Origin: a virus
Direction: 5' to 3' (one strand)
DNA: 26,871 nucleotides
IMG/VR virus record: IMGVR_UViG_3300025832_000052
Location: 1 to 26,871 of that record
In this document: positions 34 through 26,204 of the stretch, piece after piece
Numbering within the stretch: the stretch's first letter is position 1
Layout of the letters: every line of letters begins with the position of its first letter
Translations under genes and position numbers: made by a program
Notes under the pieces: model-generated
Told to the model about the DNA's origin: nothing
Database searches by the model: none
What the model saw: the letters and a program-made list of their open reading frames with translations, nothing else

Positions 34-683
34 TGATACACAATGTCCAGCAAAGATCAGACGCATGGCATGAGCTGCGTATGGGCGTTCCTACGGCCTC
101 TGAGTTCTCCAAGGCACTCACACCGAAGAAAGGCGAACTATCGACTCAGGCCCCCGCATACGCCTGTAAATTGGCCTTAGAACTTCATCGAAACGAACCT
201 TGCGAAGACTTCTTTGACAATGAGTGGATGGAGAGAGGCCGGGAGCTCGAAGAAGCGGCTCTCAACGAGTACACATTCTACCACGATATAAACACATCGA
301 AGGTCGGATTCATCCTCGACGACAAAGGCCGAGGTTGTTCACCTGACTTTCTAATTAACGACGATGGCATGGGTGAGATTAAGTGCCTCAAGGAAGAAAA
401 CCACGTTCTTACCCTCTACGAAATCTCAACAAAAGGCATATTCGACAGTAAATATATGCCTCAAATCCAAGGCCAAATGCTGATTGCACAACGAAAGTGG
501 TGTGACCTCGTATTCTACTGTCCCCGCCTCCCTTTATCTGTAATCCGCGTTCACGCAGATGAAAAATACCAAGCCGCCCTCGATGCCGCCCTCGATATCA
601 TTATCGGACATAGGGACGCAGCCTTGGGTTTACTCAACGCCAATGACGTTATCCGGTTTAAGGAGCTAGAAAATGCAGCTTGA
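30..683 (+). CDS. YqaJ/lambda-exonuclease-family recombination nuclease
   Basis: This is probably a 5'-3' double-strand DNA exonuclease that makes 3' single-stranded ends for a phage recombination system. The 217-residue protein begins with the family's N-terminal pattern (QRSDAWHELR, then G-x-P-TASEF). It carries the PD-(D/E)xK core: Asp106 in GCSPDF, and Glu116-Ile-Lys118 in GEIKC, about ten residues apart as in lambda exonuclease. A conserved MPQIQGQM segment follows. The length is normal for the family. The start at 30 has GGAG eight bases upstream; a second ATG follows directly at 33. The annealing protein and SSB lie two and three genes downstream, the expected partners of such a nuclease. 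The gene end overlaps the next start by 11 bases. The family call is firm; activity is inferred from the intact catalytic residues. Confidence 0.88.
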   Translation: MMIHNVQQRSDAWHELRMGVPTASEFSKALTPKKGELSTQAPAYACKLALELHRNEPCEDFFDNEWMERGRELEEAALNEYTFYHDINTSKVGFILDDKGRGCSPDFLINDDGMGEIKCLKEENHVLTLYEISTKGIFDSKYMPQIQGQMLIAQRKWCDLVFYCPRLPLSVIRVHADEKYQAALDAALDIIIGHRDAALGLLNANDVIRFKELENAA

Positions 684-969
684 TCTCTTAGAAGGAAAAC
701 GCCGCAGAGACGAAGGAATAGACCGTGCAGCACAGGCTAGTTCTGATTTTCTTTCTCTTTGTCGTCGCATTGCTCACGAGCACGCTATCTATCACGGCGA
801 AACCAGCATTAACGATGTTCGAAAACGCATTGAAGGTGTTCCCCACAATGTAAATCCAAACGTACTCGGGGCCGTGTTCAAGGAAAAGATGTGGGAAGCC
901 GTCGGCTACACCCAAGCAGAGCATCCAAACGCACACGCCCGCACAATTCGTGTCTATAAATTGAAATAA
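673..969 (+). CDS. small conserved-type phage protein of unknown function
   Basis: A 98-residue soluble protein without membrane segments or cysteine clusters. The N-terminus is rich in charged residues (EGKRRRDEGIDRA). The C-terminal part has the sequence VLGAVFKEKMWEAVGY followed by a His/Arg-rich end (HARTIRVYKLK). A tryptophan, a GY and a basic C-terminus of this sort recur in small proteins next to phage recombination genes, but I cannot name a family or function. It starts inside the last codons of the exonuclease gene and is followed ten bases later by the annealing-protein gene, so co-expression and a role in DNA replication or recombination are likely. That role rests on position alone. 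Confidence 0.7.
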   Translation: MQLDLLEGKRRRDEGIDRAAQASSDFLSLCRRIAHEHAIYHGETSINDVRKRIEGVPHNVNPNVLGAVFKEKMWEAVGYTQAEHPNAHARTIRVYKLK

Positions 970-2934: not shown

Positions 2935-3824
2935 ATGCCTACAGGAAGGGAGAGCATAAAAGATCAGATCGTGTCGGATGCTCTGCGCTCATTGATAGAT
3001 ACCTCGATGCCCGGAAAGACGTTATGGACTACGAGAGGCTTATCAACGCTGCAAAACCTCTCAAAGTATTTTTTGCTGAGATTAGAGCGGAAAATATCGG
3101 CCCTGAGACGTGCCGTGATTACGCAAATTGGCGAGGCAAAGCTCCTGGCACTATGCGAAGAGAGCTTGCCGTCCTCCGGTCTGCCCTCTCTCTCGCTGGA
3201 TATGTTCAAAAGCTCTGGCTACCGGACAGGGTTTTACCCAAAACAAAATACCTATCGCGTGAGGAAGCCTTTGAAGCCTGTACGCATATGTCATGGCACA
3301 TTCGGCTCTTTACCCAGATCGCCCTTGCTACAGGGCAAAGGAAAACAAGTATTCTTCAACTGACTTGGGACCGGGCCGACTTGGACAGAATGGTTTTAGA
3401 CTTTGAAAGACCCGGAAGGCGAAGGACCAAGAAGCGAACAGCATCAGTACCTATTGGAAAGCAACTCGCTTCCGTTCTCAGGGACGCCAAGCAAACCGCA
3501 GAAACAGACTTCGTTATTGAATACAACGGAAAGCCCATAAAGAACATACGAAAGGGTTTCGATAGAGCTATGGAGAGAGCCGGGTTCCCTTGGTGTACGC
3601 CACACACCTTAAAACACACTGCAATCTCATGGATGGCAGAAGGAGGCTACACAGTAGACCAGATATCCGACCTGACAGGCACAGACGCCGATACGGTCAA
3701 ACGCATATATAGAAAGTTTAACCCCGACTACCTGCGAGGACTCGCAGATCACATGGATGGAGAATTATTCGATGGCATTAAACCAGTACAAAGCAGTTTT
3801 CGTCCCACAAAGAGGCCCGATTAA
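2817..3824 (+). CDS. int: tyrosine recombinase, phage integrase
   Basis: This enzyme integrates and excises the phage by strand exchange between attP and a host tRNA gene. Numbering from ATG 2817 (335 residues), an N-terminal arm-binding type segment (RNWYIAW, RRTKLKSTG) is followed by a core-binding helical region (about 50-130) and the catalytic domain. Visible catalytic residues are Arg175 (ATGQRKTSI), a hairpin lysine in TKKRTASVPI, His263-x-x-Lys266 with His267, and Tyr298 in VKRIYRKF. The second catalytic arginine of the HxxR box is lysine here. An open frame extends back to a TTG at 2805, but ATG 2817, with GAGGA at 2800-2804, is preferred. The gene overlaps the HTH gene before it and the next gene after it. 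The att core lies 310 bases downstream, the usual arrangement. Confidence 0.93.
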   Translation: MRLVRQPNRRNWYIAWTENRRTKLKSTGCTDKSDARAVLDAYRKGEHKRSDRVGCSALIDRYLDARKDVMDYERLINAAKPLKVFFAEIRAENIGPETCRDYANWRGKAPGTMRRELAVLRSALSLAGYVQKLWLPDRVLPKTKYLSREEAFEACTHMSWHIRLFTQIALATGQRKTSILQLTWDRADLDRMVLDFERPGRRRTKKRTASVPIGKQLASVLRDAKQTAETDFVIEYNGKPIKNIRKGFDRAMERAGFPWCTPHTLKHTAISWMAEGGYTVDQISDLTGTDADTVKRIYRKFNPDYLRGLADHMDGELFDGIKPVQSSFRPTKRPD

Positions 3825-4059
3825 ACATAAAGAAGGCACAATCCAAGAAATCGAAGAGTGGATAGACAGCAAATTCGGTTCAATGGCGGTTATGTTCCGA
3901 ACAGAATTTAATCCTATAAATTTAAAAAAAGAAGGGAAACTTATCGGCGTTGGTTATAAATGCACTGATCTGTTTGCAACAGTAAATTTCAAGTGCATCG
4001 CAATTCCATTAGATATCTACAAAACCCACTTTAAATCATCATTTTATCAGCGGTCTTAG
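3772..4059 (+). CDS. 95-residue protein of unknown function next to attP
   Basis: This gene begins inside the last 53 bases of int and ends just before the attachment region. I do not recognise it. The protein is soluble, starts MALNQYKAVFVPQRG, has an acidic helix (IQEIEEWIDSKFGSM) and ends with a basic, aromatic tail. The upstream ATG at 3757 is in frame, but 3772 has GGAG (3759-3762) at a good distance, so I chose it. Small proteins between integrase and att can be accessory factors, superinfection-exclusion proteins or lysogenic conversion genes; nothing visible decides between these. Confidence 0.55.
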   Translation: MALNQYKAVFVPQRGPIKHKEGTIQEIEEWIDSKFGSMAVMFRTEFNPINLKKEGKLIGVGYKCTDLFATVNFKCIAIPLDIYKTHFKSSFYQRS

Positions 4060-4079
4060 TTATGCCGCACCGCAACAAT

Positions 4080-4094
4080 GACAACGGTGTTGTC
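4080..4094. repeat. 15-bp palindrome, left copy flanking attP
   Basis: GACAAC-GGT-GTTGTC is a perfect 6-bp inverted repeat around a 3-base centre. It lies 39 bases to the left of the tRNA-derived core. A second copy lies at 4277-4291. Both are preceded by AT and followed by ACGG, so they also form a direct repeat with only the centre differing (GGT against ACC). It may be a binding site for integrase, an excisionase or a repressor; the function is inferred from position. Confidence 0.6.
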
Positions 4095-4133
4095 ACGGTC
4101 AAATTTACACGAATCGCTAACCCATTGATATTA

Positions 4134-4178
4134 TGGTCGGGAAGACAGGATTCGAACCTGCGACCTCTGCGCCCCCAG
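4134..4178 (-). other. attP core: 3' half of tRNA-Pro(GGG)
   Basis: Read on the - strand this is the 3' part of a tRNA: anticodon loop CTGGGGG (4178-4172), anticodon-stem 3' strand CGCAG, variable AGGTC, T-arm GCAGG-TTCGAAT-CCTGT, acceptor 3' strand CTTCCCG, discriminator A and CCA (4136-4134). GGG at the anticodon position with T before and G after, a 3' acceptor G (C1-G72 pair) and A73 identify tRNA-Pro. No matching 5' half exists: upstream bases pair poorly with the anticodon stem and no CGGGAAG acceptor strand is present. Downstream of int, this is the phage copy of an attachment site that would restore the 3' end of a host tRNA-Pro gene after integration. Crossover probably lies between anticodon loop and T-loop. 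Confidence 0.88.
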
Positions 4179-4258
4179 AACAGTGGTTAGCGCTGTAAAT
4201 GGCAGGAATCCTTACCAATAAGTCAGCATAACTGCCAGAATTAAAGGAGAACATCACC

Positions 4259-4429
4259 ATGCATACCAACCACTATGACAACACCGTTGTCACGGAAGAA
4301 TGTACAAACTGTAACGATAAGTTTGAACTTTACGAACCGCCTTATGACGGAATTATGCTTTGTAAGCCATGCCGAAAAGAATTAATCGCCACAGATTTAC
4401 ACAAAATTGGACAGACAAAACCTGACTAG
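4259..4429 (+). CDS. 56-residue zinc-ribbon protein
   Basis: A very small protein with two CxxC knuckles, Cys15-x-x-Cys18 and Cys35-x-x-Cys38, separated by 16 residues with a YEPPYDG turn. This is a zinc-ribbon or zinc-knuckle layout. AAAGGAG lies eight bases before the ATG, one of the better ribosome binding sites in the window. Codons 6-11 (YDNTVV) lie in the right copy of the palindrome that flanks attP. It is the first gene on the far side of the att core from the integrase, so it would sit at the opposite prophage end after integration. Nucleic-acid binding is plausible; the product is otherwise unknown. Confidence 0.6.
   Translation: MHTNHYDNTVVTEECTNCNDKFELYEPPYDGIMLCKPCRKELIATDLHKIGQTKPD
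4277..4291. repeat. 15-bp palindrome, right copy flanking attP
   Basis: GACAAC-ACC-GTTGTC is the exact reverse complement of the copy at 4080-4094. It lies 98 bases to the right of the att core and inside the start of the small zinc-ribbon gene. The matching flanks (AT before, ACGG after) extend the match to about 21 bases apart from the centre. In the integrated state the two copies would lie at opposite prophage ends. Confidence 0.6.
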
Positions 4430-4500
4430 GGTAACGACATGCACCTGATGTGCTCCTAGGTTGATCCACACAAACTCAACCGCACACAGGAGCAACCAAG

Positions 4501-4701
4501 ATGGAATGTCCTACTGCTACTCAAGCCAACCTCTCTTTTTCAATCGCGGGCGTATGCGAAGCCACTGGCCTCAATCGCACATCGATATTTCAAGAAATTC
4601 GCAAGGGTAATTTGAAAGCCCGTAAATTTGGTCGCAGGACGATCATCTTACGCGGCGACCTCGAACATTTCTTGCAGCAGCTTCCTGTCGCCAACGCTTG
4701 A
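4501..4701 (+). CDS. excisionase/AlpA-like helix-turn-helix DNA-binding protein
   Basis: A 66-residue protein that consists of a single small winged-helix domain of the excisionase/AlpA (MerR-like) type. FSIAGVCEATGLNRTSIFQEI supplies the two DNA-reading helices. GNLKARKFGRRTIILRGDLEHFLQQL gives the wing and closing helix. Proteins of this type act as excisionases or as small transcription regulators. AGGAG sits ten bases before the ATG, and the leader has an inverted repeat GGTTGA/TCAACC (4459-4464, 4476-4481). It is the last + strand gene before the convergent late operon and lies on the far side of attP from the integrase. It could be the true Xis or a repressor of the lytic switch; the sequence does not decide. 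Confidence 0.75.
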   Translation: MECPTATQANLSFSIAGVCEATGLNRTSIFQEIRKGNLKARKFGRRTIILRGDLEHFLQQLPVANA

Positions 4702-4709
4702 AAAGATTA

Positions 4710-4740
4710 GACCCGCCTCGGCAGCCACCGAGAACGGGTC
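4710..4740 (+). terminator. strong hairpin after the last + strand gene
   Basis: GACCCG (4710-4715) pairs with CGGGTC (4735-4740), and CTCGG (4717-4721) with CCGAG (4728-4732), around a 6-base loop with a small internal loop. It follows the HTH gene by eight bases and lies in the convergent gap before the end of the late operon. There is no T-run on the + side; on the - side TTTT follows a few bases after the stem. It may be a weak or bidirectional terminator. Bases 4741-4842 hold nothing else I can support. Confidence 0.4.
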
Positions 4741-4842
4741 AAAGGATTCATCATGAAACATGAATATACATTATCCATCCTATATGACCAATAAAAACAT
4801 GGAAGTAGTGCGATAAAAAATAATGAAGCAATTTAAACAAAA

Positions 4843-5256
4843 TTAGTCTTTTTTGTTTAGCTTATCCACGGTTCTTGCACCGGAATATCCTAAGTAACCT
4901 GCCCCAAATAGCGTGTATAGGCTGTCAGGAATAGCGCCTAGCCATCCTTGAAAGCCTACAGTTACTTTACCCGCTGCTTCTGGATAGACGGCGAACAATA
5001 TGCCCATTGGTATTGATGATAGTATTAGAATATAAATCACGTACATGAACGAAGGTCGAGCGCGTGAGGTCCACGGGTCTTTGCTATTGGCTTCTGCCAA
5101 GATTGCGGACAGGCGCGTTTCCATTTCTTTAAGATCGCCGTCCTGCACCAGCTTCATTAGCTTTGCTTTGGCTGACGCTTTCTCGGCATCAGTTTCAATA
5201 ACATCATCAAGAAGCTTGCCTAAAACTGGCAGTGCCGCTGTGATTAACCCAATCAT
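4843..5256 (-). CDS. holin of the GTA-type 3-TM family
   Basis: Holins form the inner-membrane lesion that times lysis. The 137-residue protein has a hydrophobic N-terminal segment (about residues 1-16), a charged cytoplasmic-type helix (21-60, DAEKASAKAKLMKLVQDGDL), then a conserved WTSRARPSFMYV motif. A strong membrane span (about 70-90) and a third hydrophobic segment (about 112-126) follow. WTSRARP before a transmembrane helix is characteristic of the three-TM holins found with gene transfer agents and alphaproteobacterial phages. It is the last gene of the late operon; only one base separates it from the DUF5675-like gene. The C-terminus is basic (DKLNKKD), as in many holins. Assignment is from motif and topology. 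Confidence 0.85.
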   Translation of the reverse strand: MIGLITAALPVLGKLLDDVIETDAEKASAKAKLMKLVQDGDLKEMETRLSAILAEANSKDPWTSRARPSFMYVIYILILSSIPMGILFAVYPEAAGKVTVGFQGWLGAIPDSLYTLFGAGYLGYSGARTVDKLNKKD

Positions 5257-5257
5257 G

Positions 5258-5701
5258 TTAGTCTCCTTTTACGACACAAGTCAGATTGCCCGCCTCTGCT
5301 GCATCAACAACTTTCGAGTACAGCGCTTTGTAAGCCTGTGATGATGAGGTTGTTTTCATTGCGCCCTGCCGTGAGTCACAGCCACCACCAGTCAAAATGC
5401 ATCCTTCTGTGTGGTCGTCCATGTTACCAACGTGGATGTAAACCCAAGTAAAATTAGGTACATTTTGAAGCCAAAGCATACCCTTGTGCATATCTGGGTA
5501 CTTTTTAGCGTAGCGTTTTGTCATGCCACCTTCGTTTCGTAACGTGACCTTATACTCGCCGCTTGGGATGCGCGTTTCGCCAGGAATTTTAATTTCACGA
5601 TACTCATCTTCTAAACCAAAGCATTCAAACACCTCATCGATATTTATGATCGACAAAGTGCTTTCGTTGTCTGACGTAAATCTATCGACTGAGATGATCA
5701 T
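5258..5701 (-). CDS. DUF5675-like protein, possible cell-wall-acting lysis protein
   Basis: A 147-residue protein that fits the DUF5675 pattern: a CFGLEDEYREIKIPGETRIPSG segment (about residues 27-48), then a GMLWLQNVPNF stretch, then WVYIHVGNMDDHTEGCILTG with His90, His97 and Cys101. The function of the family is not firmly known to me. The His/GC arrangement recalls L,D-transpeptidase-type cysteine enzymes, and the gene stands directly before the holin where podoviruses often place the endolysin, while no classical lysozyme, amidase or peptidase gene is visible in the window. A role in peptidoglycan cutting or modification is therefore a hypothesis. Its ATG overlaps the stop of the small gene upstream (ATGA). 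No signal peptide is apparent. Confidence 0.7.
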   Translation of the reverse strand: MIISVDRFTSDNESTLSIINIDEVFECFGLEDEYREIKIPGETRIPSGEYKVTLRNEGGMTKRYAKKYPDMHKGMLWLQNVPNFTWVYIHVGNMDDHTEGCILTGGGCDSRQGAMKTTSSSQAYKALYSKVVDAAEAGNLTCVVKGD

Positions 5702-5808
5702 TTCTTTTTAGTCATTTTCATAGCCTTGCCTGATTTTTTACTAGCTTTAGCTGCTGCCGCTTTTCCTTTTGGGCCATAACCGTAACTTTTGTTACCAACT
5801 TTTGGCAT
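5698..5808 (-). CDS. 36-residue lysine-rich protein
   Basis: The encoded peptide begins MPKVGNKSYGYGPKGK and ends in a run of Ala, Lys and Met (KAMKMTKKK). It contains no acidic residue and is strongly basic. AGGAG precedes the ATG by seven bases, and the stop overlaps the start of the DUF5675-like gene (ATGA), which makes it a real member of the late operon despite its size. Short basic peptides of this MPKVGxK type occur in T7-like marine phages, without known function. Nucleic-acid or membrane binding is possible. Confidence 0.65.
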   Translation of the reverse strand: MPKVGNKSYGYGPKGKAAAAKASKKSGKAMKMTKKK

Positions 5809-5818
5809 TAACTTTCTC

Positions 5819-6172
5819 CTATTTAGGATGCACACCATTGTGCATCTTGTACATTCGTTCAGAGCTATCTGATAAATAAGCTAATTGCTTATGTATTGTT
5901 TGTAGCTCGCCTTTAACTTCTGTTATTTCTCGCGATTGTTTATCTAAATTAGACGGTGACAAAATGCCGCCAAGCACTCCTACTTGATGGCGAAACACTG
6001 CTGACCCGCTTTCTTGCTTATCCAATCTAGTATTAACAATTTCCATTTCTTTTTGGATATGTTTTAAATCTTCAATGACCCTACTAAGCTGTGATTTCAC
6101 CACTGCAAACGCCCCGGCCAAAGTCGCAATAAGGCTTACAAACTGGACAAGTTCTCTAGTTCCTAGTTCCAT
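5819..6172 (-). CDS. membrane-anchored coiled-coil protein, possible spanin-like
   Basis: The product starts MELGTRELVQF, has one N-terminal membrane segment (FVSLIATLAGAFAVV), then about 90 residues of charged, heptad-like sequence with repeated Leu/Ile positions (IEDLKHIQKEMEIVNTRLDK, and EITEVKGELQTIHKQLAYL). One N-terminal span followed by a long coiled coil is the architecture of an inner-membrane spanin (Rz-like), and it lies in the lysis cassette. No lipoprotein partner is visible, so this is unproven. An ATG nine codons earlier (6199, 126 residues) has GGAGC upstream and could be the real start; I chose 6172 because it leaves only a 10-base overlap with the gene before. It could also be another small membrane protein of unknown role. 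Confidence 0.6.
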   Translation of the reverse strand: MELGTRELVQFVSLIATLAGAFAVVKSQLSRVIEDLKHIQKEMEIVNTRLDKQESGSAVFRHQVGVLGGILSPSNLDKQSREITEVKGELQTIHKQLAYLSDSSERMYKMHNGVHPK

Positions 6173-6729
6173 GAAATAGCCCCAGCCCGGTTGGCCCATA
6201 CAATAGCTCCAGCAATAGTTGCTGCCGCCAGAACGCCTATCAGCTTAGAACCCTCAACGATGCATCTAATAATTTTATTGTAAAACGCTTCATCTTCTAG
6301 CGCTTGTGCAGCGGCAGCTTCTTTAGCTTTCCTGCGTGTTGCCTTACGCTCTTCTAAGAGTGTCTCACGGGTCGCTAGAATTTCATCCCACGTACCTTCG
6401 CCAAAGCGATTATCGATCCTAATCCCAAGGTTAAGAATGTCCCTGTCAATTTTCTTCTGCTCTAAGACCATAGCAGCAACGGCACCGACGCTTAGTTCAT
6501 CTTCCTCGTCTTCGCCCGTCTTCTTACTAAAGAACTTGTGCAGATTTGATTTAGGTTTGGTTGTCTTCTGTTTCTTCTTAAGTTCTCTCGCAGCCGCATC
6601 ACGGTGATGGAACAGCGCATCAAGACCAGAGCTAATACCCTGTACGTCTTGAGCAGTATCAACCGCTGACTTAACAGCATCGACTGCACCTTTGACTAGA
6701 GCGAACGCTGCAAGAGATTCAGCAATCAT
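6163..6729 (-). CDS. phage protein with C-terminal membrane segment, function unknown
   Basis: A 188-residue protein. The N-terminal ~35 residues are small and alanine-rich (FALVKGAVDAVKSAVDTAQDV), then comes a lysine-rich stretch (ARELKKKQKTTKPKSNLHKFFSKK) and an acidic patch (GEDEEDEL). A central helical region includes EQKKIDRDILNLGIRIDNRFGEGTWDEI, and a charged helix is rich in Glu, Arg and Ala. A single hydrophobic segment (KLIGVLAAATIAGAIVWA, about 163-180) lies close to the end. I do not recognise a family with confidence. It sits between the receptor-binding protein and the coiled-coil membrane protein, so a tail-assembly or lysis role is possible. It starts two bases after the fibre gene stop. 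Confidence 0.65.
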   Translation of the reverse strand: MIAESLAAFALVKGAVDAVKSAVDTAQDVQGISSGLDALFHHRDAAARELKKKQKTTKPKSNLHKFFSKKTGEDEEDELSVGAVAAMVLEQKKIDRDILNLGIRIDNRFGEGTWDEILATRETLLEERKATRRKAKEAAAAQALEDEAFYNKIIRCIVEGSKLIGVLAAATIAGAIVWANRAGAISWN

Positions 6730-6731
6730 TG

Positions 6732-9700
6732 TTACTGCACCTCTATTGCCGTCACTAAGGCGCAGTAACTAGCTGTTGTTGATAAACCAGCCGGGGCTGT
6801 TACTGATGCAGCATCTGTCGAGGCTTTGATGTGCCACGAGTAACCACTTCCACTTGGTGTGTATCTTAGGTCACCGTTGCTTGCTCCAATGTCAAAGCCG
6901 ACAACAAACCCATTAGCGCCGTTATCAGACAACTCAACCCAGTCACTCCATACAGAGCCACCAGTGGGGATGTTAAAGGCTGCATCACCGTTCAACGTAA
7001 GTGCAACTTGAGTTCCTTGGTAATCCCAAGCATTGCCACTCGTTGCTTTAGCGTCGATGTAGATTGCATCAATATCAATGTCACCCGCCGTAGATGCTTC
7101 CATCTTCACACGTACTTTGGTGAAGCTGTGAGTTGCTACTGCTGATGCTGGTATCTGTGATCTAAACGTGTAATTTGTATTGCCACCACTATTCCCAGTA
7201 AGAGCAATAGATTGGATAGTTGCACCAGCGCGATACTGTGCCACTGTACCTGTGTAGAGTGGGTGTGTGTCTGGTAGGTTTTGGGTAGCTAGTGCAAGAT
7301 ATCCACTTTCAGACGGAACGTAACCCTGTTGTCCGAAGTCAACTAAGATACCTGTCGCATACATATCCGCGCAGAACCAATAAAGTTCCCCTGTAGGAAT
7401 ACCTGTTAGTTGTGTACCAAAAGCAACGCCATTTTCTTTAACATCAAAGTAGCCATTGTCAGCATCAAATAGAAATTCATACACATCACTGGTTGCGGAT
7501 GCAGCGCCGTTATAGTGGACTGTAGAAGAGCCACCATTAAATTTGTATTTGATATCTCCACTAGCCATGTGTAGGCCAAATGTTGTGTAGTTAGCTGCCG
7601 TTGTTGATATAAAGCGTGACCTTGCTGCTGTTGGCGACCCAAACTGATCTCTGACAATACAAACATCACCGTCATTAGAGCCACTAACCGCCCCTGTGAT
7701 TGTAAATTGTACACCCCATTTACCTGATGTTGGAAAAGCTATGGTTGATACTAAGCCTTTGTAATTAGCAGCAGCATTGGTAAACTGTAGATTACCTTCT
7801 GTCGGTACACCAACAGTATGACCCCCACCGTTAGTGGGGTCCCAAGTTGCAAAGTTACCAATGCCATCATCAGCGCTATCAGTTGGCGTGTCTTCTAGTT
7901 GATCGGATGCGGTGAAGTTGTTTGAAACATATCCATTATTTCCTGTTGCAAGAAACACAGCACTAACCGCTGCTACTTCTGTAGCTCCTGTATTAGGGGT
8001 AACTGTGATTGTATTTGATCCGGTAGCTGTAAGCTTTTTAGAGCCACCTGCTTGATATTGTGATCCAGCACCAGAAATATCTTCATCGTAATCTTCAGTA
8101 AGACCAGTAAAAGTAACGCTTGCATGATCTTTACCACCATAAACGGCAAGTATAATATCTTTAGCTCTACCCGATACAGTTAATGTAGCTGTAGACGATG
8201 TTGAAGTGTTAGTCGCTCCAACACCAGTTACACCAGTTAATGCCCACACACCAATACCACAACGACCTTTACCACTACTAAAAGTAACAACAATATCTGC
8301 TGTAGTTCCAGAAGGCACAGACGCATACCAAAGTTCAGTCTCAGTACTGTTTGTAGCATCAATGGCTTTGACTGCACTCAGACCGCCGACAGTTAATGTA
8401 TTTATTCCTGCCGGACTATTACCTGCCGAAACACCCACAGCTACAACACGATCTGATGATGCAGTGCCTATAGCTTGTGACGAGAAAGTATAAGCCGTTG
8501 CCCCACTACTGTTGACTGAACTGTCAGTAAACGTAACTGATGTGTCTCCAGTATAATTAACATCCTTACCAAAATCAGCCGTGTCTGCGAAGTAATACGC
8601 GCCACCGTTCTTACCAAGTCCATCATATGACCCAACAGCAAAAGCAACCATAGCACGATTTGAGTTTGTAGCAGAATAAGTAGCTGTAATAGTAAGATCG
8701 TTATCGCTTGTAATTGAACTAGATGCGCCAGACGCATTTGCACTTTCGCCGTTACTATTGTCAAAATTCTCTGTCGCCCCAACCCAAGTTACATCTGCAC
8801 TAGCAGTAGTCCATCCACAGTAAGCAACGACAAAACCATCGCCAGACATATTAGTAAGAGTATCCGTACCGGGTGAAGCATTGCTTGATATAATGTCTCT
8901 GACATAAAAGTTTGCTGTATTTATCGCCCACACACCAATGTCGCATGAATTTGAAGATTGAGGCCATGTGACAACAATGTCTGCCGTTGTACCTGATGGC
9001 ACATTTGCAACAAACAATGCAGCATAAAGCGCGTCTGTTGATGCTTTTCCAACAACTTCAGTTGCAGATACACCTCCAATTGTAACAGTTGGAGTTGCTT
9101 GTGGGGAGCCAGTGGACCGTTGAGCAGATGTGCCTACGATAACTTGCCGATTTGCATTAGCAGTTCCAATCGCTTGCCCAGAGAATGTGTAGCCTGTAGC
9201 GTTTGCTGTAGAAGAAGCGTTGCTTACATAGGTAACGCCGCCGGGATCACTTATAGTACTTGGAACGTATTCTATAGGATTCCAGAATCCATCGTCAGTC
9301 TCACCGAAATCTGTGGCACTCAGCGCTGCACCGTCGATGAGTTGGGGAAGTGCCATGAGGCCGTCAAAGAAGTTCGCTGACCCTGTGACTGTACCTATCC
9401 TATGGACGTTTGTGTTATTGACATCTGTGTCCATGTTGAGAGCGGGCCAGTTCGTCGTCTGAAACGATGTGATTTTTGACCCGTTGATGTAGAGTTTAAC
9501 CCTGTCTGTGTCTGTGGCCTGTGTTGTGTCTACAGCAACAACCATATGATACCATGCAGATGGGTCTAAGAACAAAGCAGTAGTTTGTAACTGGTCAGTG
9601 ACACTACCACCGTCTACATGGATGTACTGGATTGTGCCTGTAGATTGGTATTGCAGTCGGGTAGCGTTATTCGTAGTGCCGTCACCCGCACCAAAGAAGT

Positions 9701-9878
9701 GTTGCGTTGTTCCATCTACAGCAGGTTTAAACCAAACGCTGTACGTCCAAGCCTTACGGTTACCAGCAACAGATGGTGTGCGGTTTAGGTACGAAGCGCC
9801 ATCAAACAGTAGCGATTGCTCAAGGAGGTACGCACTTGCGCCCTGTGAGACTATGCCGGGAGAAAATCCATGTAACAT
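6732..9878 (-). CDS. receptor-binding tail protein with LamG-like lectin and SPRY-like domains
   Basis: Probably the distal adhesin that binds the host surface. About 1048 residues from ATG 9878. First comes a LamG/concanavalin-like domain (about 15-205: FDGASYLNRTP, WTYSVWFKP, WYHMVVAVD, RVKLYINGSKI). Two homologous units of about 200 residues follow, each with YTFS-QAIGTA, VPSGTTADIVVT and C-IGVWA. A SPRY-like region (about 655-840: ATWDPTNGG, WGVQFTI, YEFLFDADNG) precedes a strand-rich C-terminal domain. An in-frame ATG at 9908 also exists, but 9878 overlaps the upstream stop as TAATG and gives the family-like N-terminus, although no clear ribosome binding site is seen. Low Lys/Arg and high Ser/Thr/Gly/Ala are usual in fibres. 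It follows the fibre adaptor gene. Confidence 0.82.
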   Translation of the reverse strand: MLHGFSPGIVSQGASAYLLEQSLLFDGASYLNRTPSVAGNRKAWTYSVWFKPAVDGTTQHFFGAGDGTTNNATRLQYQSTGTIQYIHVDGGSVTDQLQTTALFLDPSAWYHMVVAVDTTQATDTDRVKLYINGSKITSFQTTNWPALNMDTDVNNTNVHRIGTVTGSANFFDGLMALPQLIDGAALSATDFGETDDGFWNPIEYVPSTISDPGGVTYVSNASSTANATGYTFSGQAIGTANANRQVIVGTSAQRSTGSPQATPTVTIGGVSATEVVGKASTDALYAALFVANVPSGTTADIVVTWPQSSNSCDIGVWAINTANFYVRDIISSNASPGTDTLTNMSGDGFVVAYCGWTTASADVTWVGATENFDNSNGESANASGASSSITSDNDLTITATYSATNSNRAMVAFAVGSYDGLGKNGGAYYFADTADFGKDVNYTGDTSVTFTDSSVNSSGATAYTFSSQAIGTASSDRVVAVGVSAGNSPAGINTLTVGGLSAVKAIDATNSTETELWYASVPSGTTADIVVTFSSGKGRCGIGVWALTGVTGVGATNTSTSSTATLTVSGRAKDIILAVYGGKDHASVTFTGLTEDYDEDISGAGSQYQAGGSKKLTATGSNTITVTPNTGATEVAAVSAVFLATGNNGYVSNNFTASDQLEDTPTDSADDGIGNFATWDPTNGGGHTVGVPTEGNLQFTNAAANYKGLVSTIAFPTSGKWGVQFTITGAVSGSNDGDVCIVRDQFGSPTAARSRFISTTAANYTTFGLHMASGDIKYKFNGGSSTVHYNGAASATSDVYEFLFDADNGYFDVKENGVAFGTQLTGIPTGELYWFCADMYATGILVDFGQQGYVPSESGYLALATQNLPDTHPLYTGTVAQYRAGATIQSIALTGNSGGNTNYTFRSQIPASAVATHSFTKVRVKMEASTAGDIDIDAIYIDAKATSGNAWDYQGTQVALTLNGDAAFNIPTGGSVWSDWVELSDNGANGFVVGFDIGASNGDLRYTPSGSGYSWHIKASTDAASVTAPAGLSTTASYCALVTAIEVQ

Positions 9879-11509
9879 TAGGTTACCGTCAAACCAACAG
9901 CCAACCATGTATCGGTTGCTAGTTTAACTAAGTCGCAAGCACCGTACTGAGCCAAGGCTCCGCTTCCTGCACTTATGCCGTTGATATACACGCCTGTGTC
10001 TCCTGTGATTGTAACTACACCAGCACCAATCATGGCGATGGAGAGCTTGGCACCAACCGGGAATGCTACGCTTGCGTTAGTCGGCACATTGAAAGCGATA
10101 GCAGAACCGTTGTTGCAAGTTATGATCTTATGGTCGTCAGTGAGGCTTGGCGTAAAGGTCGTGCCTGTCTGAGCATTGACTGTGCCTTGGACCATTGACG
10201 GCACGATAGCATCGTCTCCAATGCTGACAACGCTGCCTACTTTGGTGAGGCCAGCGCCAACAGTAATCTGTGACATCTGGACGCCAACCCAGTTGTCGGG
10301 GCTGTTGTCATCTGCAACAAACTGTATTTGTGCGTTGACGTCAGTGATCGTGATGTCTGACGCTGAACCGTTTAATGTGTCAGAGCCGCTGCGCTGAAAG
10401 ATCAGGCTGTTGGAAGCAGAGGTCTTTTGAAAAGCATACTTTGTACCTTCGGCAGTGCCGATTGCTGGCAATGTAACGGTGATATCGTTGGACGATGTGT
10501 CGCACAAATAGTATGTACCGTCGGCTGACAATGCTGGAGACAACGCCGCACCCGTTTGGTTTACGACAGTTGAATATATCTGCCCGCTGGCAGCTTGTGC
10601 CGCAGAAGCCGCAGCGTTCGCAGCGTATTTTTTAGCGGAGAACTCACCACCCGCAACAACTGTATCTACGTCGAATGACGCACCGCCTAAGGCCCATTGC
10701 TTAGATGACCCTGTACTTACCGTTGTGCCTTGGCTGTATTCCTTAGAAGAAAACTCTGAGGTATCAACCGCTGCGCCTGTGCTTGTTGCCCATTCTTTAG
10801 CAGCACCTCGAGCGCTTGTTGTCGTTACACCTGTGCCGCCAATAGCCCAAGCCTTTGATGCGTAATCTGAACCTGTTACAGCGCCGTCAATTTTAGTAGC
10901 GTAGTTGGTTGAAAGTGTCGCACTCGCCGCTGTCGTTACTACGTCTGCGTTTGTAAGCACGAGATCAGCTGCTGTTGCTGCTGCGTTTGATGCTGCATTG
11001 TTTATTTCAGCTACAGACGGCCCAACTTCAATACCACCGCTTGTTGTTACCTTAACTGTTCTTTCAGTCGTATCAAAGCCATCAGGCCAAACAAGAGAAT
11101 ATGTTTCTGGTGAAGTAGAAGGACGAGATATAGCGCGGGATATAATTGTGTTTATTTGCTGTAAAATTGCATACGCTTTATCTAGCGTTGTGTTTAATGT
11201 TCCAATATTAAAAATACCAGAAGTTGGGAAATCACTTTCGCGAGCAATTGGAACGTCACGATTTAGTGTCAACGTTACGTTGCTAATGTTAGAAACAAAA
11301 GTAACTGTTCCACCCGAAAACCCATCGTCAACAGCAGTGCCGCTTATTGTGTAGTGAGTGGTTATCGTTTTTAAAACCCCATCAACGTACACTTTAATAT
11401 CGTTTTCATTAAAATACGGGTATGAAATTGTAAAAGGGCCAGTAGTCGGAGTTGACCCTACTGCGTACTGATCTACTGCGTCATTTGCTGCAATTGTAAT
11501 TTGTGTCAT
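9878..11509 (-). CDS. tail fibre protein with T7 gp17-type N-terminal domain
   Basis: The 543-residue protein attaches the fibre to the tail. The first ~150 residues match the T7 tail-fibre N-terminal domain pattern: FTISYPYFNENDIKVYVDG, then YTISG, GTVTF, LTLNRDVPIARESDFP and TTLDKAYAILQQINTII. A central Ala/Ser/Thr-rich part (about 170-310) has repeated SKAWAIGG / AKEWATSTG / SSKEYSQG / SKQWALGG / SAKKYAANAAASAAQAA units, which are typical fibre shaft repeats. The C-terminal ~200 residues are strand-rich. It contains no obvious peptidase or endosialidase motif. Its ATG overlaps the stop of the gp16-like gene (ATGA), and the lectin-domain gene follows, so adaptor and receptor-binding parts are split between two proteins. 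Confidence 0.88.
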   Translation of the reverse strand: MTQITIAANDAVDQYAVGSTPTTGPFTISYPYFNENDIKVYVDGVLKTITTHYTISGTAVDDGFSGGTVTFVSNISNVTLTLNRDVPIARESDFPTSGIFNIGTLNTTLDKAYAILQQINTIISRAISRPSTSPETYSLVWPDGFDTTERTVKVTTSGGIEVGPSVAEINNAASNAAATAADLVLTNADVVTTAASATLSTNYATKIDGAVTGSDYASKAWAIGGTGVTTTSARGAAKEWATSTGAAVDTSEFSSKEYSQGTTVSTGSSKQWALGGASFDVDTVVAGGEFSAKKYAANAAASAAQAASGQIYSTVVNQTGAALSPALSADGTYYLCDTSSNDITVTLPAIGTAEGTKYAFQKTSASNSLIFQRSGSDTLNGSASDITITDVNAQIQFVADDNSPDNWVGVQMSQITVGAGLTKVGSVVSIGDDAIVPSMVQGTVNAQTGTTFTPSLTDDHKIITCNNGSAIAFNVPTNASVAFPVGAKLSIAMIGAGVVTITGDTGVYINGISAGSGALAQYGACDLVKLATDTWLAVGLTVT

Positions 11510-14500
11510 TTTGGAGCCCCTGCCATTAAATCTTCTGAATAATCAAATAAACCGTCAGCCCAGAAGACCCGATTACCTAACAAAGCCCTGCGACCATATT
11601 TGGCGTCACGCTTTCCAACGTGACCATCGGATAACCCGGATATTAACCGAGAAAGGTTTTGGGCTTGTGACACACTAGGGCCTAGAAGGTTTGAAGCTTT
11701 GTAAGCTGCCGAAGAGCGTCTTGGGTTTTCGCCAACAAGTGGCCCCAGACCAAATCGGTTATCAGAGAAAGTTTCAACCATGCCGTTAATGTCTGAGAAA
11801 TAACCAAGAATGCCTGACCTTTCTATGCCCGACTTAATAAGCTCGCCCGTACCCTTCGGCTTGTTGTTGCCAAGCTGCTCATCACGGATAAGAGTAATCA
11901 TCATTCCAAGAGCAACAGCACCGCCAGCGCCAATTAAAAAGTTCTTATCAGGGTTTTGAAGTCCAGGAACTAAGACGCGTTGCGTTGCACTTGTTGTGAA
12001 ACTCTTGAACTGGAACAAAACTTGAGCCATTTGAGGAGACATAAAGAAGTCTTGAGCTTTCTCTACTCTTGTTAAGTCTTCGCCAGCATCTTTTTTCGCC
12101 CGAAGTTTTGCGTCTGTTTCTTTAAATATTTTACCAAGACCGCCACTCATTGCGTTAGGCATGTCGCCAGCACCCGGCGTTACGATGATCTGGTTAATCT
12201 CTTTACCCAAAGCCGCAGAATAAGCCTCTGCAGCCTCACGATCTGTCCAATTCTGTGTCTTAGCAATACGAACCCGCCCCTTCCTGACACCATGTTCTTC
12301 AAACTGGATAGACATACGCCATGCCATGTTCTCATCGATGCCTACTCTGGAGAGCTTTGACTGCTCATAACCCGTGCTAGGCTGCCCTCTGGACCCCGCA
12401 CGGCGCAATGCTGCCTCGTTGATGCGTGTTTCATACACACCATTAGCTTCGCCTTTACGCGGCCTTATATCGGCGTGTGCAAGCTCATGCTCTATGACAA
12501 AATCACGCCATTCAGCGAAGGTTTTAAACTGGTCCTCTGGCATTGGCTGGACTTTTCGCCATTTTGGGTTCGCCCATGCCTTATTTTCGTAAGTCTCGCG
12601 TAATTTATCTAAATCCAAAGACACTGTGTTCGTCTTTTTATTGTATTTTGCGGCAATCCTTGTATTGCTCCGGTTAGAAACAACTTCTCCGTACTCAATC
12701 GTTGCTTTGGCACTATTCCGGCCAGCAGAAGCCCACTTTCCGGCCTCATCTAATATCCGAGAGCCGGTAATAAGACTTGCCATTGTTTTTACGCCGACAT
12801 TCCAAGGGTTCATAAGCGATGCGTTAAAAAATTGCTGTGTGGCTTTTGCTGCAATGTTTTCAAACTTAGACGTAGCGCTCATAGCATCAGATAAATCAGA
12901 AAATAAAGAAGCCCGCATCGACATGTACATATCAAGAGCTTCTCCTGCTAATTCAGCTTCATCATTAGCAAGGCCTATAACGCCTCTTTTCTTGTTTCCT
13001 TGCATAACGACACGCACATCTTTTGCGAACGCATCATAAAGGGTGCCAAAGGTGCGTGTTACGCCGTCATACATAACTAATCGACCCATATCAGGAACCG
13101 CTGCCATTGCTCCTGTAAGAAAAGTCATCGCGTTATACATTTTAGCGACACGCAAACCTCTGTTGGTGTAACTGTCAGGATCATCAGGCAACCCATAAGT
13201 GCCTCGGATACGATCCCGCACCACTTTTAGGTCTTCAATCTCGGCTTCCATGCGCTCTTCGAGCTTTTGCCTCTCAAGACCTTTAGCGTTATCTATTTTT
13301 TTCTGCCATTCAGCGCGGATTTTTTTAATCTGAGGTGCCAAGCTAATAGAGCCAAACTTTTTAATAAGCTCAACATCAGGAGCAACTCGGGTGGTATAAT
13401 ATTTACCCGTTGCAAAGATATTATCTTCAAGGAAATCCTCTAAAGCCTCGTCAGGAATATATGCTAACGTCCGGCCTTTAAGGCTTGATGCTCGTCCTGT
13501 TAAGTCTGACTTACGAAGCATATCAGAACCGGGTCCTAACATGTCTTCTTCAGGTGTTCTTGGACGATCTCCTAAAACACTATCAACCGTGTCATCTAAA
13601 GATTCTTCTCGAACTCCATGACGCCGCAATACGTCTTTAAATGCTTCACGGTTTTCTCGAATATACTCTTTCCGATAAATACGGTTCATATAATTAGGGT
13701 CGATATCCGCGCTATCGATTTCGCGTATCTTTAGACGAAGTGCTTTTATCTCTTCCTTCATTCCATCGAGGCGCTCGTCGGCTTTATTGGCTTTTCGAGC
13801 CGCCCAAAATGTATTCGTCTTTTCTGCAAGCTCGTCACGGAACGCTCTGCTAAATAAACCATTTGCTTTTGCGTCCTCGCCCATTGGACGGTAAACCTTG
13901 TTGTGCCAAGTGTTCGCGGCTTCCAAGACTTCCTGCTCAATACCAGATACATCGTCACCCAAGCGGCGCTTCGCTCTCCCGGCTGCTCTTAAGAACTCGT
14001 CAAAGCCCATAGAGTCACCTTTACCAGAAAGGTCACGGATGCCTTGGCCGATTATTGTTGTTGCATTAGAGCCATCTACACGCTGGCGATAACGAAGGTA
14101 TAGCTTTTCAGTGTCACGCATGGCGCTAACCATTTTCGTTGTCCACCGGATTGCAACCATACGGTCAACCCCGTGTGAACCGGACTGGTTAACACCGTTC
14201 TTCCTTAGATAAAAAGGATGCTCGACCAATTCAGATATGATGGTTTTTCCGACATTACTTCCGTCATACAGGGTCCGTTTAACCGGGCCATCAGGTAATT
14301 TTTCCGTCCCCATCGCGGGCATAATCCCGTCGCCGTCGTCTACGACTTTCTCTGTTGATGAAGGCTTCGGCGCTGGAGCGTCTACCTCTGCGTCCATAAT
14401 GATATCGCCGGGGTCTTTAACGTCTGCAACTTCTCTGCTGGTTGAGCCGACAACTGCGGGCTTTCCATCAGGGCCGACCATTGGAGGCTCGTCACCAAAC

Positions 14501-23209: not shown

Positions 23210-24019
23210 TTACGAAACAAGTTGGCGATATCCCTCTTCAACTTTTCTAACAAAACCGGGATCACGACGGTTTGCATCCCAATATCGAGGGTCTGCTTGC
23301 ATTGCGCGCAAATCTTCCATTGTAACGCTAGATGATGATTGATGCTGATTAGGAGAGAATGAAGCCTCGCCAGAAGCAGCCATGATTTCTTCAAGCGCAA
23401 TTACGCCGTCAGCCGTCATAGCCATTTCGTGCATAGCGTTAACAGTATCGTCTGAGAAGTTTGCTTTGGCCCAGTTGCCGACGTGCATAGTTCGGTCATG
23501 CCCGTTGTCACCGAGCTTTCCAAGCTCTGCTTCAAAGTCAGGCATTTCACCAATTTTAGCGCCAGCATAAAGCTCTAAGCCTTTTTGGAATGATTCTTGG
23601 TTCATGCCTTGCTCAAACGCCATCTCACGCCAGAACGTCATAAGAGGGTCATCGTTATTAAACTCGATGTCGTAGCCTTCTGGCAGTTGCTCTTTAAAAT
23701 CGTCAGACAGAACAAGCTCGTAGTCTTCCATTGCTTCAGGACGGTTGATAGTCCGGTCAGCATCCATTTCGGATTGGATTTGAGCTCTTACGTCATCCGT
23801 CTTTTCGCGAATTTTGCCGCCAAGTTCTTTGTATGACTTTAAGAGGTCTTCGACTTTGACTTGTTTGGTATCTGTGTCCCAGAAGTTATCAGGCACATAA
23901 TCGGGCTTCCCCCCAACATCGGCAGCATTTTTCGCCGGGGCGGTATCTTCGGTCCCGCTGCTGGAAGCTCCTGCATTTGGACTCTCCGTCGCGCCGCTTT
24001 CACTAGATTGTTCGCTCAT
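23210..24019 (-). CDS. capsid scaffolding (assembly) protein
   Basis: This protein guides procapsid assembly and then leaves. The 269-residue product has the usual features: an acidic Ser/Ala-rich disordered N-terminus (about 1-35), PDYVPDNFWDTDTKQVKVEDLLKSYKELGGKI (the conserved phage scaffold opening), many Glu/Asp, a helical centre (FWREMAFEQGMNQESFQKGLELYA) and a basic C-terminus (DPRYWDANRRDPGFVRKVEEGYRQL). That end resembles the coat-binding tail of podoviral scaffolds. AAGGA lies before the start. Its start overlaps the upstream gene by 17 bases. Position between portal and coat is standard. Confidence 0.88.
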   Translation of the reverse strand: MSEQSSESGATESPNAGASSSGTEDTAPAKNAADVGGKPDYVPDNFWDTDTKQVKVEDLLKSYKELGGKIREKTDDVRAQIQSEMDADRTINRPEAMEDYELVLSDDFKEQLPEGYDIEFNNDDPLMTFWREMAFEQGMNQESFQKGLELYAGAKIGEMPDFEAELGKLGDNGHDRTMHVGNWAKANFSDDTVNAMHEMAMTADGVIALEEIMAASGEASFSPNQHQSSSSVTMEDLRAMQADPRYWDANRRDPGFVRKVEEGYRQLVS

Positions 24020-24564: not shown

Positions 24565-24666
24565 TTATTTGCCCTTCTTCGATGGTTTCTTCGGCGCTGG
24601 CTTTTCAGCCTTCGCTGGCGCAGTTGCTTTCTTCTCGTTAAGCTTTTCGTTAAGCGTTCTAAACAT
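24565..24666 (-). CDS. 33-residue basic peptide after the portal gene
   Basis: The peptide begins MFRTLNEKLNEKKATAPAKA and ends EKPAPKKPSKKGK, a Lys/Pro/Ala-rich tail. The ATG overlaps the portal stop as TAATG, and the next gene starts two bases after its stop. The exact fit between neighbours supports a real gene, although its size and low complexity leave room for doubt. No function can be given. Confidence 0.55.
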   Translation of the reverse strand: MFRTLNEKLNEKKATAPAKAEKPAPKKPSKKGK

Positions 24667-26204
24667 TATTGCTGTCCTTGCTGATTGGGTTGTCGGTTTG
24701 CTTGAACTTGCTGCGTCTCTTGAATGGCTTGCTGAATCTGTTCGCGTTCTGCTTTGTCACGAATAAGCTTTTCCGGGACGCCAATCTCTTTACCAGTGTA
24801 AACAGCGGCTTCTTCTGCTTTAACGACTACGTTTGTCATCTGAGGGCCAAAGCCAGCGTTCATAAGTTCTAACCACCGTGCGACCCGTGCGACGTTCTCG
24901 TTATGCTGTGCTTGTGCCAGAGGGGATACGTTGACGATCTTTACTTCACGCCCGTTGACCTTCGGGATATTAATACGTCCCTGCTTGCGAAGGATATGCA
25001 CGACACGGCGTAAAATCTGTGTCACCCCTTCTGAGTGCAAGCGGCCATAAGCAGATCCGATTGTTCGCGCTAAATCAGCCATTCTCTCATGCACTTCTGT
25101 AGCAGACATTGGCGTACCTTCCGGCGCACCTAACTGCTCATTGAAGAGAGCTTTGCGAATATTGTGACGCATATCATTGAGGATAAACTGCCCCATATCG
25201 AAGTTGCCGGGGGACTGCAAAGGCTCAAGGCCACGGCTTCCCATAGCTCTTGGAATGATTGTGCCAGGAATTAGTTCTAAGGTATCAGGGTTGATAACAC
25301 CGTCATCGTCGGCTTGCCACATACCCGTAATAGCCAGCGCACCATTCTCAAGGCCAAGCTTTACGACCTCGTTAAGAACGCGAATATCAGGGAGTGCAGA
25401 CAATAGAGGCCCACGCCCGTATGTCTCTCCAGCGGCTTTAGACCACCTAAATGATATAATTGGTTGAGCGCCATCGCCTTTAAAGACGTTTTGTAAAATC
25501 ATGTGTTCTGGCTCTAAGCAAACGACACTAAAATTATGCGTTTCTGTTTCTTTGACTTTCCAGTCGCGAGCAACACACTCAATAACCTTGAACTTTTTTA
25601 ATTCATCTAAGCCAGCTTCACGGCGCATTTCTTCGCTGATGTCGGCTTTCGGCCAGATGACCTCGATAGCTTCAAGAGTAAGCATTCGGAGTCGATATTT
25701 TTTATCAACTTTTCCGTAAGGTCCGGCAGACAGGTAAACTTCGTTTTGAGGCAGAGTTGTGAACATAATTGGCTGTTCCGCGTCACCCTCCTCAATACAA
25801 ATAGAAGCGGAGCCAACTGCTAGATCGTAATAAGCTTCATGTAGCTCTTGATCCATATTTGAGCTTTGAAGGACTTCCCAAATATAATTACTAATCAAGT
25901 CTAGCTCTGTATCGACTTTTGACTTCTGGTCTTCTGGTATTTCTGACCCAGCCCTAAACTCAAACCATTTAGAAAACGGAGGTGTCAGGCCAGCTTGCAT
26001 ACGGCTGGCAAACTCATCAACGGCAGTTACTGGGGACGAGTCATAAATATCATCTGTTTCTGATTGGCCGGGAGATTGGCCGTAAAAGCCAAGCCGCTGC
26101 GGAAAACAATAGTCGTAGCAATCCTGCCAAAGCGGAATCCAGTTTGCGCGTTCTTGCTCACAAGCTCTAAACCCTGTGATAATTTTTTTAAGTTCTGGGG
26201 TCAT
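24666..26204 (-). CDS. portal / head-to-tail connector protein
   Basis: The dodecameric portal through which DNA enters and leaves the head. The 512-residue protein has the podoviral head-tail connector pattern: ACEQERANWIPLWQDCYDYCFPQR near the N-terminus, IYDSSPVTAVDEFASRMQAGLTPPFSKWFEF (about residues 52-84), then a long central domain with YGRGPLLSALPDIRVLNEVVKLGLE (about 265-290) and AFNEQLGAP-type residues LFNEQLGAPEGTPMSATEV. It ends with a Gln-rich tail (QQAIQETQQVQANRQPNQQ). Length is usual for T7-type connectors (536 in T7). It overlaps the gene before it as TAATG and the small gene after it in the same way. Confidence 0.93.
   Translation of the reverse strand: MTPELKKIITGFRACEQERANWIPLWQDCYDYCFPQRLGFYGQSPGQSETDDIYDSSPVTAVDEFASRMQAGLTPPFSKWFEFRAGSEIPEDQKSKVDTELDLISNYIWEVLQSSNMDQELHEAYYDLAVGSASICIEEGDAEQPIMFTTLPQNEVYLSAGPYGKVDKKYRLRMLTLEAIEVIWPKADISEEMRREAGLDELKKFKVIECVARDWKVKETETHNFSVVCLEPEHMILQNVFKGDGAQPIISFRWSKAAGETYGRGPLLSALPDIRVLNEVVKLGLENGALAITGMWQADDDGVINPDTLELIPGTIIPRAMGSRGLEPLQSPGNFDMGQFILNDMRHNIRKALFNEQLGAPEGTPMSATEVHERMADLARTIGSAYGRLHSEGVTQILRRVVHILRKQGRINIPKVNGREVKIVNVSPLAQAQHNENVARVARWLELMNAGFGPQMTNVVVKAEEAAVYTGKEIGVPEKLIRDKAEREQIQQAIQETQQVQANRQPNQQGQQ

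Follow-up and report, generated by a model that had tools for sequence, protein, structure and literature searches.

The ejection proteins of short-tailed phages build a conduit, and the T7 version has a cell-wall enzyme attached. The gp16-like ejection protein encoded in the window, the 26,871-base virus record analysed here, contains an HExxH metallopeptidase-like segment, which raises the question of what this segment is and what it does in such a protein. The carrier was assigned from its PHROG matches (Table 1) and from gene order. The late genes on the minus strand run from portal, scaffold and capsid through tail tubes A and B and a pair of ORFs in the places of gp14 and gp15 to the 1296-aa gp16-like ORF and the fibre genes, so that the gp16-like ORF is placed as in a T7-type late operon. 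For the pair between the tail tubes and the gp16-like gene, no family gave a significant match, and the labels gp14- and gp15-like come from position only. Elsewhere in the window, a tyrosine integrase (Pfam PF00589; 2805-3824, +) in a record with a T7-type structural module suggests a temperate podovirus, a GTA_holin_3TM adjoining a DUF5675 protein (4843-5701, -) is a probable lysis cassette, and the protein at the fibre position (6732-9908, -) has a laminin-G/concanavalin-like domain at residues 44-193. No terminase was found among the window ORFs scanned, and the record is probably a fragment.

Table 1. Features of the window, and sites of the inserted domain along the gp16 profile
Feature	Coordinates	Strand	Basis or carriers
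gp16-like ejection (internal virion) protein, 1296 aa	11506..15396	-	phrog_16310 E 1.4e-94; phrog_342 E 6.1e-56
Zincin-like domain, residues 890-1012 by profile	12361..12729	-	profile match 131 bits; AF2; structural matches
HELAH, residues 970-974: H970 and H974 predicted zinc ligands, E971 predicted general base	12475..12489	-	
YETRIN, residues 988-993: E989 predicted third zinc ligand, N993 predicted second-shell residue	12418..12435	-	
Left flank MNPWNVG...LDEAGKWA, residues 862-889	12730..12813	-	gp16 core to profile position 773
Right flank LSRVGIDENMAW, residues 1015-1026	12319..12354	-	gp16 core from profile position 785
gp15-like neighbour, 986 aa	15386..18346	-	position
Capsid		-	named by position
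T7-type scaffold	23210-24019	-	Pfam Phage_T7_Capsid
Portal	24666-26204	-	
Domain site 1	profile ~190-256		most copies
Domain site 2	profile ~473-499		L053/L056
Domain site 3	profile 575-596		L155
Domain site 4	profile 773-785		window, L032, L189
Domain site 5	profile 824-829		eight loci

The segment is the only HExxH in the whole protein, and it lies at the coordinates given in the earlier note, but on the minus strand (ORF 15396-11506; residues 900-1013 correspond to nt 12699-12358). The note had also described it as an insertion between stretches that look contiguous in T7-like gp16 proteins. This holds closely: with the domain removed, the flanks align to gp16-profile positions 773 and 785. 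In tblastn searches against cultured phages, 59 records (from Vibrio, Escherichia, Klebsiella, Alteromonas and other phages) have gp16 relatives with a gap at the segment. The seven gp16 relatives from cultured phages that were examined, EC.W1-9, ctHz2215, PG9A-2, CKB-S2 and TL-2011b in full and ZP6 and Mwe-JY08 without their N-termini, have neither an HExxH nor a significant zincin-profile match.

Relatives of the inserted domain were reached by its motifs. Single-protein scans of viral contigs found no relative, whether the query was the complete gp16 or just the insert. A DNA pattern that allows any 24-54 bases between HExAH and [YF]ExRIN matched in 72 viral contigs. Nearly all matches have a 39-base gap and 71 of them form one family; the remaining one (L030) was excluded as a non-member. 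Further pattern scans brought the family to about 100 viral-contig ORFs. Beyond the pattern the family has residues such as F966, E983, A996 and a KAWTKPKVKGVxPLPENxFKT stretch in common. No PHROG or Pfam family was recognised as describing the domain. DUF4344 ('putative metallopeptidase') was hit by 6 of 48 members (best E 6.7e-4) and M91 by 2 of 48; these matches are weak and scattered, and neither family is claimed.

HExxH and a downstream E-x-x-x-N are kept across the family, including in copies that were found without reference to one or the other. HExxH is present in 16 of the 18 new copies retrieved with a pattern that omits it (counted after removal of tail-sheath-like matches), and E989 and N993 are present in all four copies retrieved without the downstream motif, as RENHAN in L079-L081 and YENRVN in L082. 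These catalytic residues are conserved among copies that are mostly 20-35% identical to the window. The roles of H970 and H974 in zinc binding and of E971 in catalysis, put forward in the earlier note, are predictions, and the conservation of the motif agrees with them. The note had further pointed to two glutamates, E989 and E994, some 20 residues downstream. E989 is conserved, as the first residue of E-x-x-x-N, and lies 15 residues after H974; E994 is variable (Q/E/K/R). E989 and N993 are kept and E983 is not in L079-L081, which makes E989 the likely third ligand. The E-x-x-x-N of the family would correspond to the E-x-x-x-D of gluzincins. L079-L081 form an outlying subfamily, with RENHAN for YENRIN, that may link the family to other zincins. 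A GES-YENRIN pattern mostly retrieved (among L083-L190) another virus protein that ends in LYENRINPIA, presumably akin to T4-type tail sheaths. Its stretch is unrelated and was set aside; it matches YENRIN and can mislead motif searches.

The HExAH and [YF]ExRIN pattern had five matches in 84,980 prokaryote genomes (257 Gb), none with the family spacing, and two of these, re-found by protein search, look like MqnE. This pattern admits a single His codon (CAT); with CAC in its place, nine matches were obtained among viral contigs, against 72 for CAT. The prokaryote result is a strong hint that the domain is restricted to viruses, although a CAT-only pattern does not prove its absence from prokaryotes.

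Structure prediction, one of the checks named in the earlier note, gave a small zincin-like fold. The AlphaFold2 model of residues 885-1015 of the window protein, made with 47 homologues, has a mean pLDDT of 84, with 93-96 in the core. In this model a set of strands is followed by the HExxH helix (model residues 76-92) and then by a helix that carries E105 and N109, which are E989 and N993. To the extent that a predicted model can show it, the domain thus withstands the note's two refuting conditions, one on the fold and one on the motif in homologues. When the model was compared with solved structures by VIA-align, at least 41 of the best 50 rows were named zincin metalloproteins. The matches include YbeY (the best, Z 6.9), PprI/IrrE (Z 5.9 for PprI), M1 aminopeptidases, selecase (Z 4.9) and other minigluzincins, lethal factor, Spartan, ArdC and Wss1. 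Each single Z score is modest, and the strength of the predicted assignment is in the agreement among the zincin matches. Foldseek against the PDB found nothing below E 0.1 (best E 0.18), and sequence searches of the PDB with the domain profile or the gp16 profile found nothing significant. In a viral structure library, four matches had E values under 0.001; the proteins concerned are 990-1325 aa long. A model of the 706-residue gp16 C-terminal part shows the same secondary-structure elements at low confidence (mean pLDDT 59) and was excluded from the fold search.

The position of the domain in its carriers is variable. An intact copy is present in 91 viral-contig ORFs, 55 of which match a gp16 profile, and the domain occupies at least five distinct gp16 sites (Table 1). 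In the tree of gp16 cores each lineage has its own insertion site, the window and L032 forming one clade (100/100). The domain tree groups L177 (site 824), L186 (N-terminal site) and L137 (another carrier) at 96/94. The gp16 cores of L177 and L181 are 88% identical to the right of the domain, whereas their domains, at the same site and both with HExxH and YENRIN, are only 33% identical. Judged by sequence, the pair is a natural module exchange, the only clear one found. As a rule the domain diverges in step with its core (r = 0.91; 290 pairs, not independent of each other), which tempers the idea of fast exchange in general. The domain is conserved to about the same degree as the gp16 core: between the window and L032, the domains are 56% identical and the neighbouring gp16 parts 58-66%. 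The other carriers are large, virion or multi-domain proteins; a single virion-protein family (phrog_30152) is matched by three of them. Domains found beside the zincin-like domain are Phage_lysozyme in L013, SLT in a carrier of the L010/L027 type, and SLOG/NADAR-type domains in one carrier, probably L071. The L071 ORF (3334 aa; 3357-13358, -) has the zincin domain followed by an apparent SLOG/YspA-type domain (SGAADGADTVFE) and resembles a polyvalent effector protein.

Three copies have lost the motif. Among cultured phages the domain was found only in Pelagibacter phage Hodr, where it occupies residues 255-371 of the gp16-like protein (29515-29883 of the Hodr record), a place other than that in the window. 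The HExxH of Hodr has degenerated to KEVYR, and this copy is likely a pseudopeptidase. L087 and L173, which belong to one lineage, have KELNQ in place of HExxH; L210, with a domain apparently related to the dead L087 copy, retains HELAH. The copies in Hodr, L087 and L173 show that catalysis may be dispensable in some lineages while the domain persists.

We propose that residues ~890-1012 would form a self-contained zincin metallopeptidase domain looped out of the gp16-like core. H970, H974 and E989 would bind one zinc ion, E971 would activate a water molecule and N993 would support the site. The domain would be packaged in the virion with gp16 and reach the cell envelope or cytoplasm together with this protein. 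Its most likely action there would be cleavage in trans, and a host protein encountered at entry is a more probable target than gp16. The domain boundary, the family, the predicted fold, the conserved catalytic residues, the several insertion sites and one exchange are supported by computation. We infer zinc binding, activity and substrate, as well as delivery with gp16, the last from gp16 homology. The variable position and the exchange fit action in trans better than a fixed cut site in the carrier. Overall, we regard an injected zinc peptidase acting in trans from a gp16-like protein as evenly poised between right and wrong. The broader picture, in which virus-restricted injected metallopeptidase cassettes occupy several ejection-protein sites, are occasionally exchanged and cut a host factor during genome entry, is more tentative. 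In the T7 topology (PMC8954989), the inner membrane would separate N-terminal from C-terminal insertion sites, which fits poorly with a single host target common to all copies.

The joint divergence of domain and core in most pairs also agrees with a function linked to the carrier and keeps a processing model alive, in which the peptidase would cut gp16 or neighbouring core proteins in the head or during ejection. The fusion of the domain to several unrelated large virion proteins is in keeping with such maturation or self-processing. However, at least five positions and an exchange between near-identical cores do not suggest a fixed cut site, and dead copies are present in intact gp16 genes. 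To our knowledge, T7-type gp16 matures without a peptidase, which also counts against processing. Self-processing has been proposed for P1 DdrB and is an option for the N4 virion RNA polymerase (vRNAP), but the latter, with its MPTase domain, is packaged uncut (PMC5512222). We consider this explanation rather unlikely, though worth keeping in view.

The dead copies in Hodr, L087 and L173 could also mean that the fold has a non-catalytic role as a peptidase-derived binding or spacer domain, for example in gripping a host protein or stabilising the ejection core. Pseudopeptidases are known among metallopeptidases (PMC11266112). This would be an improbable account of the family as a whole, since HExxH is retained in nearly all copies found without reference to it, at mostly 20-35% identity to the window, and E989 and N993 are kept as well. 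L210 is intact even though its domain resembles the dead L087 copy.

If the domain served to open the peptidoglycan or envelope, it would stand in for the lytic transglycosylase that is missing, with cell-wall peptides or proteins anchored in the wall as its substrates. There is indeed no sign of a transglycosylase at the N-terminus of the gp16-like protein, as the earlier note had observed: the match to phrog_342, annotated 'internal virion protein with endolysin domain', begins at profile position 252 of 1235, and a Pfam search of the 1296-aa protein returned zero domains. The preceding gene does not appear to supply one either. Its 986-aa product has no Pfam or PHROG match and no recognised peptidoglycan hydrolase, and it matches none of the relatives' genes at this position, the annotated lytic transglycosylase of CKB-S2 among them; in CKB-S2 and TL-2011b a transglycosylase is annotated in the preceding gene. 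However, the domain stands beside Phage_lysozyme (L013) or SLT (L027) in one polypeptide and is thus not simply a substitute, and the structural matches are mostly protein peptidases. We regard envelope opening as a poor candidate. A chance HExxH in a helical region without any zincin is hardly credible: the motif is short, but it arises in only 0.5% of shuffled proteins of the same composition, and the conservation at fixed spacing across the family together with the predicted fold refutes this explanation in practice.

If the preferred reading of a peptidase-like module acting in trans is true, many environmental podoviruses would deliver a protease with the first proteins that enter the cell. 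Its clear definition, small size (~110 aa), natural dead copies and exchanged pair make the family directly accessible to tests of function. Zincins in virion-delivered proteins are already known from N4 and P1; searches of the open-access literature turned up no account of this family, its carrier or its several insertion sites, nor of a zincin in gp16-like proteins.

Among known systems, the zincin-like MPTase domains of phage 'polyvalent' proteins, which include the N4 virion RNA polymerase and P1 DdrB (Iyer et al. 2017, PMC5512222), are the kind to which the earlier note had likened the segment; the N4 domain is also treated in an N4 structure preprint (PMC12633501). The likeness stands in kind. 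Both groups have a zincin core, predicted in the case of the window family, in which the HExxH helix is followed by one with a Glu; both sit in large virion-delivered proteins, and both co-occur with lysozyme and effector-type domains. It does not extend to a profile relation with the N4-vRNAP clade, the one compared of 12 MPTase clades: the alignment covers the HExxH neighbourhood only (hhalign probability 2%), and HExxH precedes NEFMAW by about 80 residues in that clade, compared with a 13-residue gap to YExRIN in the window family. No polyvalent-MPTase family occurs among the Pfam matches of 48 members, and the text of PMC5512222 mentions neither gp16 nor ejection or internal virion proteins.

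The PprI/IrrE and ImmA-type (M78-like) zincins resemble the domain in its predicted fold (VIA-align Z 5.9 for 8sln, 81 residues, 3.4 A). The zinc ligands of IrrE are His82, His86 and Glu113 (PMC5552922), and the ranges aligned with IrrE 3dti (model 118 to chain 126) agree with a placement of E989 at Glu113. The window family has a shorter spacing from HExxH to Glu and lacks a DNA-binding or GAF part, and M78 (IrrE/ImmA) gave no Pfam match in 48 members at E 0.1. The minigluzincins selecase, abylysin and jannalysin are of similar size (~110 aa; selecase 4qhf, Z 4.9, rmsd 5.8 A), but they are archaeal free-standing proteins, and a sequence relation to the window domain was not found. T7 gp16 itself belongs to the homologous carrier family. 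Its N-terminal transglycosylase is a phage-specific part that is not universal among gp16-type proteins (PMC8954989); the window protein lacks that part and has a zincin-like domain inserted in its C-terminal half.
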